NCBI GenBank assembly: GCA_902560725.1
Contig: CACEMR010000013.1
Coordinates: 1-35,966 of the forward strand
DNA length: 35,966 nt
Reading direction: 5' to 3'
Source of the DNA: an uncultured Alphaproteobacteria bacterium
Lineage (GTDB): Bacteria; Pseudomonadota; Alphaproteobacteria; HIMB59; GCA-002718135
Shown here: positions 12,684 to 13,913 of the stretch, in pieces
Position numbering within the stretch: position 1 is the first letter of the stretch
Layout: each line of letters opens with the position of its first letter
Notes under the pieces: generated by a model
Seen by the model: the letters and a program-made list of their open reading frames with translations, nothing else
Told to the model about the DNA's origin: nothing
Database searches by the model: none
Program-made: the position numbers and the translations under genes

Positions 12684-12753
12684 CTATTTCACCTTTTAGT
12701 ATATCTTACACAATTAGTTAAGAGTGATTAAAGGTAAGTAGTAAAAATTAAAC

Positions 12754-13287
12754 ATGGATAAATCTAAACTTTCCGAATTAATGGTCAAAGTTAAGAATGA
12801 CCGCGACCAAATAGCATTTTCAAATTTATTTGATTTTTTAGCCCCTAAATTAAAGGCATATTTTATACAAAATGGTCTTTCTGCTGACATTTCAGAAGAA
12901 TTAACACAAGAGGTTATGAGCATTATATGGTCAAAATCTGATAGGTATGATTCTTCTAAATCTGCAGTTACTACTTGGGTTTATACCATTGCAAGAAATA
13001 AAAAAGTCGATTTTTTCAGGAAAACCGCAAAAATTAATGTCAATGATGATGATATAAGGGAGTTTTTGTATGAAAATGGTGATGAAGATAAATTATCCAG
13101 AAAAGAAGCCGCTGAACAGGTAAATAGGATCAATAAGGAACTCAACCAAGATCAGCGAAAAATGATCAAAATGAACTTTTTTGAAAACAAAAGTCATAAA
13201 AAAATTGCAGAGGAGCTTGAAATTCCTTTGGGCACAGTTAAATCAAGAATAAGAAATATATTAATAAAAATGCAGAGATTGTTATGA
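12754..13287 (+). CDS. rpoE: ECF RNA polymerase sigma factor (RpoE/ECF11-like)
   Basis: Extracytoplasmic-function sigma factor of 177 aa. Region 2 covers about residues 22-92, with ELTQEVMSIIWSKSDRYD and TTWVYTIARNKKVDFFRK. Region 4 covers about residues 125-175, with the helix-turn-helix KIAEELEIPLGTVKSRIRN. The following gene is a ChrR-like cupin protein whose start overlaps the sigma stop (ATGA), the arrangement of the ECF11 RpoE-ChrR pair that answers singlet oxygen in Rhodobacter. The role in photo-oxidative stress is inferred from this pairing. The 70-bp region upstream shows no promoter I could recognise. Confidence 0.88.
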   Translation: MDKSKLSELMVKVKNDRDQIAFSNLFDFLAPKLKAYFIQNGLSADISEELTQEVMSIIWSKSDRYDSSKSAVTTWVYTIARNKKVDFFRKTAKINVNDDDIREFLYENGDEDKLSRKEAAEQVNRINKELNQDQRKMIKMNFFENKSHKKIAEELEIPLGTVKSRIRNILIKMQRLL

Positions 13288-13913
13288 ACGGTACATTAGT
13301 TAAAAACCAGCTTATTTTTGATTATGCCTCTGGTTCCCTAGGTTTTTCAAAGTCGGTATTTGCTTCCACATATTTGTATTTAAATTCAAAAGCATCAAAT
13401 ATAAATTCTACATTTGAAGCCATGCTTGGTGAAGATTTATTAAACAACGATAACATACCTGTTACAAAACTCAAATATACCGATTGTTTAAAAAATGAAA
13501 AAAATGATACAAATGAGATCTATGCTGATGTAAGCCCCATATCTAAGCTTGTTGGTCCATTAAACCAAATTAAATGGAAACAAGTTTATAAAGGCTTCAA
13601 AGAATTTAACCCTAAAGTTTCTGATGAAAATGAACTTAAACTTATTAAAATGGATCCTGGGGCATCTGTTCCTCTTCATTCACACGGAGGCCAGGAATAC
13701 ATATTAGTTTTAAATGGTAGCTTTTGTGATGAGTATGGCAAGTACAATAAAGGCGATATGCAAATCAACGATCAAAAAATTAAGCATACACCAATTGCAT
13801 GTAAAGACGAAGGATGTATTTGCTTAACAATTACTGAAAAGGAAGTAATATTTTTTGGTAGATTTGGATCTTTCTTAAACCTATTTACTTTTATAAAATC
13901 TTTTTTTAAGTAA
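13284..13913 (+). CDS. ChrR-like cupin anti-sigma factor with a zinc-less N-terminal domain
   Basis: Probable regulator of the preceding ECF sigma factor, translationally coupled through ATGA. The C-terminal half (about residues 110-200) is a ChrR-type cupin with HSHGGQEYILVLNGSFCDE and KHTPIACKDEGC. The likely metal ligands H132, H134, E138 and H168 are all present. The N-terminal half resembles the ChrR anti-sigma domain (IFDYASGSLGFSKSVFASTY), but the histidine and the two CxxC cysteines that bind zinc in Rhodobacter ChrR appear as Y, N and A. No early histidine is present either. It may bind sigma without zinc, or may have a changed control mode. Length is normal at 209 aa. Confidence 0.78.
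   Translation: MNGTLVKNQLIFDYASGSLGFSKSVFASTYLYLNSKASNINSTFEAMLGEDLLNNDNIPVTKLKYTDCLKNEKNDTNEIYADVSPISKLVGPLNQIKWKQVYKGFKEFNPKVSDENELKLIKMDPGASVPLHSHGGQEYILVLNGSFCDEYGKYNKGDMQINDQKIKHTPIACKDEGCICLTITEKEVIFFGRFGSFLNLFTFIKSFFK

Follow-up and report, generated by a model that had tools for sequence, protein, structure and literature searches.

The ChrR-type anti-sigma factor described here has lost all four zinc ligands of its anti-sigma domain and has kept the metal-binding site of its cupin domain. It is encoded in the window, i.e., the whole stretch of 35,966 nucleotides that was analysed, from an uncultured alphaproteobacterium of the HIMB59 lineage. Comparison with related sequences indicates that the loss of the zinc site is not peculiar to the window gene but spans its whole order and recurs across the Alphaproteobacteria. 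We consider it rather probable that this protein combines a zinc-free anti-sigma clamp with a release of the sigma factor that is triggered by the cupin, as predicted below.

The gene for the ChrR-type protein (positions 13,284 to 13,913, forward strand, 209 amino acyl residues in the translated open reading frame) overlaps by 4 bp (ATGA) with the gene for its presumed partner, an ECF sigma factor of 177 residues (12,754 to 13,287, forward strand). The latter is of the ECF type according to its regions 2 and 4 (Pfam Sigma70_r2 and Sigma70_r4_2), and its putative ECF11 label is taken from its ChrR partner. The family model TIGR02451 (NCBIfam anti_sig_ChrR) matches the window protein almost end to end with 117.5 bits, just below the cut-off of 124.5; as this is a near miss, the assignment to the ChrR family rests on the domain fold, the cupin ligands and the adjacency to a sigma gene. 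Of the features of the TIGR02451 family, the N-terminal ChrR anti-sigma fold, a cupin with the ligand set HHEH and the adjacent ECF sigma gene are all present, and the solved structures nearest by sequence are chains of ChrR from Rhodobacter sphaeroides. The cupin domain (13,536 to 13,865, residues 85-194) scores well above the cut-off of Pfam Cupin_7 and matches the fold of ChrR in PDB entry 2q1z; its ligands H132, H134, E138, and H168, which correspond to H141, H143, E147, and H177 of ChrR, are invariant in the order. The sequence-only reading had described a ChrR-like regulator coupled to an ECF sigma gene and possessing an intact cupin with exactly these four residues, and both statements are confirmed. 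Compared with ChrR of R. sphaeroides (PDB 2q1z and 2z2s), the anti-sigma factor of the ECF11 sigma factor sigma-E, the window protein shows the same succession of anti-sigma domain and HHEH cupin, and its gene likewise lies beside an ECF sigma gene, whereas the four zinc ligands of the R. sphaeroides anti-sigma domain are all replaced.

This replacement can be read from the alignment of a profile built from the anti-sigma domains of zinc-less ChrRs, the window protein included, which fits residues 4-58 of R. sphaeroides ChrR (2q1z) without a gap (E 3.5e-17). In the anti-sigma domain of the window protein (13,284 to 13,451, forward strand, residues 1-56), ChrR H6 corresponds to L5 (codon 13,296 to 13,298), H31 to Y30 (13,371 to 13,373), C35 to N34 (13,383 to 13,385), and C38 to A37 (13,392 to 13,394). 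Residues 1-67 contain neither histidine nor cysteine, the first cysteine of the translated protein being C68 and its first histidine H132, so that a displaced His/Cys zinc site is impossible and the site has not moved. The HxxxCxxC set is absent from every relative examined in the genus, the window protein lacks the ZAS motif H/C-x24/25-H-x3-C-x2-C, and Pfam zf-HC2, which matched a zinc-retaining ChrR weakly, does not match it. An earlier alignment of ASTYLYLNSKAS with ATHLSLCDEC, giving tyrosine for histidine and asparagine and alanine for the two cysteines, was right according to the 2q1z register, and the loss of the zinc site deduced from it is supported; a search for displaced ligands found none, and both the profiles and the fold show that the N-terminal half has remained a ChrR anti-sigma domain.

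The latter conclusion draws on several comparisons. Scored with a profile of zinc-retaining domains, the window domain reaches 10.6 bits and its own shuffled versions no more than 4.7; with the profile of zinc-less domains, it reaches 23.9 bits. In profile-profile comparisons, the domain of the genus matches the zinc-retaining domains with 93.6% (E 2.2e-7) and the zinc-less ones with 96.9% (E 1.7e-10); for the far more diverged domain of a sister family, these values are 14.9% and 89%. The AlphaFold monomer model of the window protein has a mean pLDDT of 72.5, with values below 50 at residues 38-61, i.e., where helix 3 should end, and at residues 70-80. Its best match is ChrR 2q1z by Foldseek as well as by VIA-align, the latter superposing 141 residues in the range 6-185 (Z 18.3, rmsd 2.6), and the best unrelated entry covers only the cupin (Z 14.1). 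A model of a sigma-ChrR complex, obtained for the L028/L244 gene pair by reading through the intervening stop as a tether, was poor (pTM 0.41). A natural sigma-ChrR fusion in L028/L244 had been considered and was rejected, given the TAA stop between the two genes.

Within the genus, each of Y30, N34, and A37 is found in 74 of 74 sequences, the window included. Calculated from 475 sequence pairs in which synonymous change is not saturated, dN/dS amounts to 0.097 in the anti-sigma domain, 0.27 in the linker, 0.05 in the cupin, and 0.016 in the C-terminal tail, and the anti-sigma domain of the genus is therefore under purifying selection. With the same Y/N/A residues in all 74 congeneric sequences, purifying selection, and a retained match to the ChrR anti-sigma domain, the loss in the window gene is neither an error nor chance nor decay. 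The hydrophobic C-terminal tail GSFLNLFTFIKSFFK (13,866 to 13,910, forward strand, residues 195-209), predicted to be helical in the AlphaFold model, is constrained more strongly within the genus than any other part of the protein and may be in contact with the membrane or with the sigma factor.

The related loci of the order stem mostly from single-cell alphaproteobacterial genomes; in 79 of 79 of them, chrR directly follows the sigma gene, and the 4-bp overlap is found in nearly all of the 73 loci of the genus. The gene order argG, ialB-like gene, sigma gene, chrR is common to the genus and to the sister family (G037-G060), in all fetched members of which the anti-sigma zinc ligands are absent and the cupin site is kept; the census counts of 100 for the genus and 32 for the sister family include some genomes twice, via two collections. 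In the sister-family loci (L027-L030, L067, L068, and L151-L170) the anti-sigma domain is barely recognised by profiles, and the cupin, the gene order and the sigma neighbour are retained. Relatives in viral contigs were not found. The interval that separates the sigma gene from the divergent ialB-like gene contains a block of 28 bases, TTTAGTATATCTTANNCAAWTAGTTAAG (12,695 to 12,722), which is conserved in most members of the genus and is present a single time in the genome to which the window belongs; perhaps it is a two-way promoter. The ECF11-like promoter pattern TGATC-N17-20-TAA is rarer in the window than in shuffled sequences.

For a wider view, 386 genomes of the class were searched with the family model, giving matches in 209, and a census set was formed from nearly all listed places that scored above the cut-off, plus a selection of weaker matches. 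Among the 154 full-length ChrRs from outside the order, all four zinc ligands are present in 112, three in none, two in seven, one in 14, and none in 21. The resulting proportion of 42 zinc-less proteins among 154 is a biased rate, weak matches having been added deliberately. The cupin set HHEH is kept in 154 of 154 ChrRs outside the order and in all within it, with or without the zinc finger, the demand for full length favouring intact cupins. The absence of three-ligand proteins suggests that, after one ligand is lost, the others follow soon. On a tree for which only the linker and cupin columns were used, at least 19 changes of the zinc state are required (shuffled mean 46); three of the changes are forced by well-supported branches and many forks are open. 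As zinc-less ChrRs are scattered on this cupin tree, the losses seem to be mostly independent. The residues that take the place of the ligands are not random, since among the 42 zinc-less ChrRs the C35 position is occupied by N, D, or S in 25 and the C38 position by A or S in 28, and tyrosine stands at the H31 position in eight of the 22 in which the histidine is lost. Zinc-less ChrRs of other alphaproteobacterial families (e.g., L106, L113, L122, L145, and L147) thus resemble the window protein in keeping the HHEH cupin with zero to two zinc ligands and in the recurring replacements of H by Y, of the first C by N, D, or S, and of the second by A or S, but some of them, unlike the window locus, lack a neighbouring sigma gene. 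The frequent N, D, or S at the C35 position might cap a helix; this idea is suggestive but was rejected, the model having one continuous helix (residues 21-49) there.

According to the mechanism that we propose, the window protein would act in the cytoplasm as the anti-sigma factor for the ECF sigma factor whose gene lies directly upstream, and its N-terminal helical domain would still clamp this sigma factor. The helical bundle would be held by helix packing in place of a zinc ion, on the model of RseA from E. coli and RskA from M. tuberculosis, class I anti-sigma factors whose helical domain is zinc-free and binds an ECF sigma factor (PMC7406223). Unlike the window protein, RseA and RskA have other sensory parts and no cupin, and a sequence search of the PDB with the profile of zinc-less domains returned only ChrR and designed helical proteins, so that the likeness is one of mechanism and not of detected homology. 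Sigma binding by RsiW from B. subtilis is also independent of zinc (PMC7406223), yet RsiW, unlike the window protein, retains a zinc-binding motif. Class I anti-sigma domains with and without zinc are intermixed on their tree (PMC7406223). Since its anti-sigma domain has no zinc-bound cysteines, a switch based on zinc-finger oxidation would not be available to the window protein, and release of the sigma factor would most likely proceed via the metal of the cupin domain. The ChrR cupin of R. sphaeroides is needed for the response to singlet oxygen, i.e., for release, and E147 and H177 are essential (PMC6852236). Singlet oxygen reacts rapidly with a model peptide of the zinc finger, and the authors of that study do not decide whether the finger, the cupin or both act as sensor (PMC6432622). 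Against a zinc-free clamp speaks that R. sphaeroides ChrR needs the zinc of its anti-sigma domain in order to inhibit sigma-E (PMC6852236). The sequence-only reading had offered zinc-free sigma binding and sensing by the cupin only as two alternatives; they are compatible and probably true together, the part that stands being the loss of the zinc site and the mechanism remaining a prediction. That many scattered ChrRs, including every ChrR found in the order, would hold their sigma factors without zinc and sense oxidative stress by the cupin metal alone is a wider proposal, to which we give slightly less than an even chance.

Other explanations agree with parts of these data. Sigma binding might be zinc-free and the trigger might lie elsewhere, in regulated proteolysis of ChrR, in a partner protein or in the oxidation of other residues, the cupin being structural. 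In R. sphaeroides, singlet oxygen promotes the turnover of ChrR and other proteins are required for it (PMC6852236), and a linker cysteine (C68) is present in the genus. However, all ChrRs sampled have the same four metal ligands in the cupin, and mutating two of them blocks the R. sphaeroides response (PMC6852236), so we regard a trigger outside the cupin as unlikely. Least compatible with the data is a remaining metal site in the anti-sigma domain that uses other or displaced ligands. The domain does have Asp, Glu, and Asn residues, which are potential metal ligands, but no support for such a site was found, and the lack of His and Cys up to residue 67, together with the lack of HxxxCxxC among relatives in the genus, makes it highly improbable.

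A loss of the anti-sigma function itself, the protein being a cupin regulator or an enzyme that is merely encoded beside a sigma gene, would fit with zinc being essential in the model ChrR (PMC6852236) and with the existence, in other families, of zinc-less ChrR-like proteins without a sigma gene, several of them beside a cysteine-synthase-like gene. Outside the order, an ECF sigma gene is adjacent in 31 of 42 zinc-less versus 102 of 112 zinc-retaining ChrRs (Fisher p 0.0085, kinship ignored) and missing in 11 of 42 versus 10 of 112; loss of zinc can thus accompany loss of anti-sigma work. For the window protein this explanation is unlikely (somewhat less probable than a trigger outside the cupin), as purifying selection acts on the domain and its replacement residues are invariant, the overlap with the sigma gene persists throughout nearly the whole genus, the sister family shares the gene order, and profile and fold match the ChrR domain. 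The window protein is not of the sigma-less orphan sort. In L120, L122, L124, L142, L146, and L147, sigma-less genes for zinc-less ChrR-like proteins are divergent from a cysteine-synthase-like gene (ETIGNTPLIRLKKAS...), followed in some of these loci by a gene for a secreted-looking protein of about 260-280 residues; possibly they constitute a ChrR-like orphan subfamily that has given up the anti-sigma function.

The preferred reading, a zinc-free clamp relieved through the cupin, bears on how this family is understood. In reviews, the anti-sigma domain of ChrR is presented as zinc-binding (PMC6852236; PMC8999054), and in view of the 42 zinc-less proteins among 154, weak matches included, the label "zinc-binding anti-sigma factor" fails for a good part of the alphaproteobacterial ChrRs. 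Zinc-free anti-sigma domains are already known, and the new part is the recurrent loss of zinc within ChrR; no text reporting such repeated losses was found, but they may be visible for some AS11 subgroups in the figure of PMC7406223. It is not settled which of the two sites of ChrR, the zinc finger or the cupin, senses singlet oxygen, or whether both do (PMC6432622; PMC6852236), and natural ChrRs with a cupin site and without a zinc finger provide a direct test of which metal site is the sensor. The host lineage, probably AEGEAN-169/HIMB59, would inhabit the sunlit surface ocean, where photo-oxidative stress is to be expected. If sensing by the cupin only holds true, the zinc finger would be dispensable for sensing family-wide, and oxidation of the zinc finger would not be the general mechanism.
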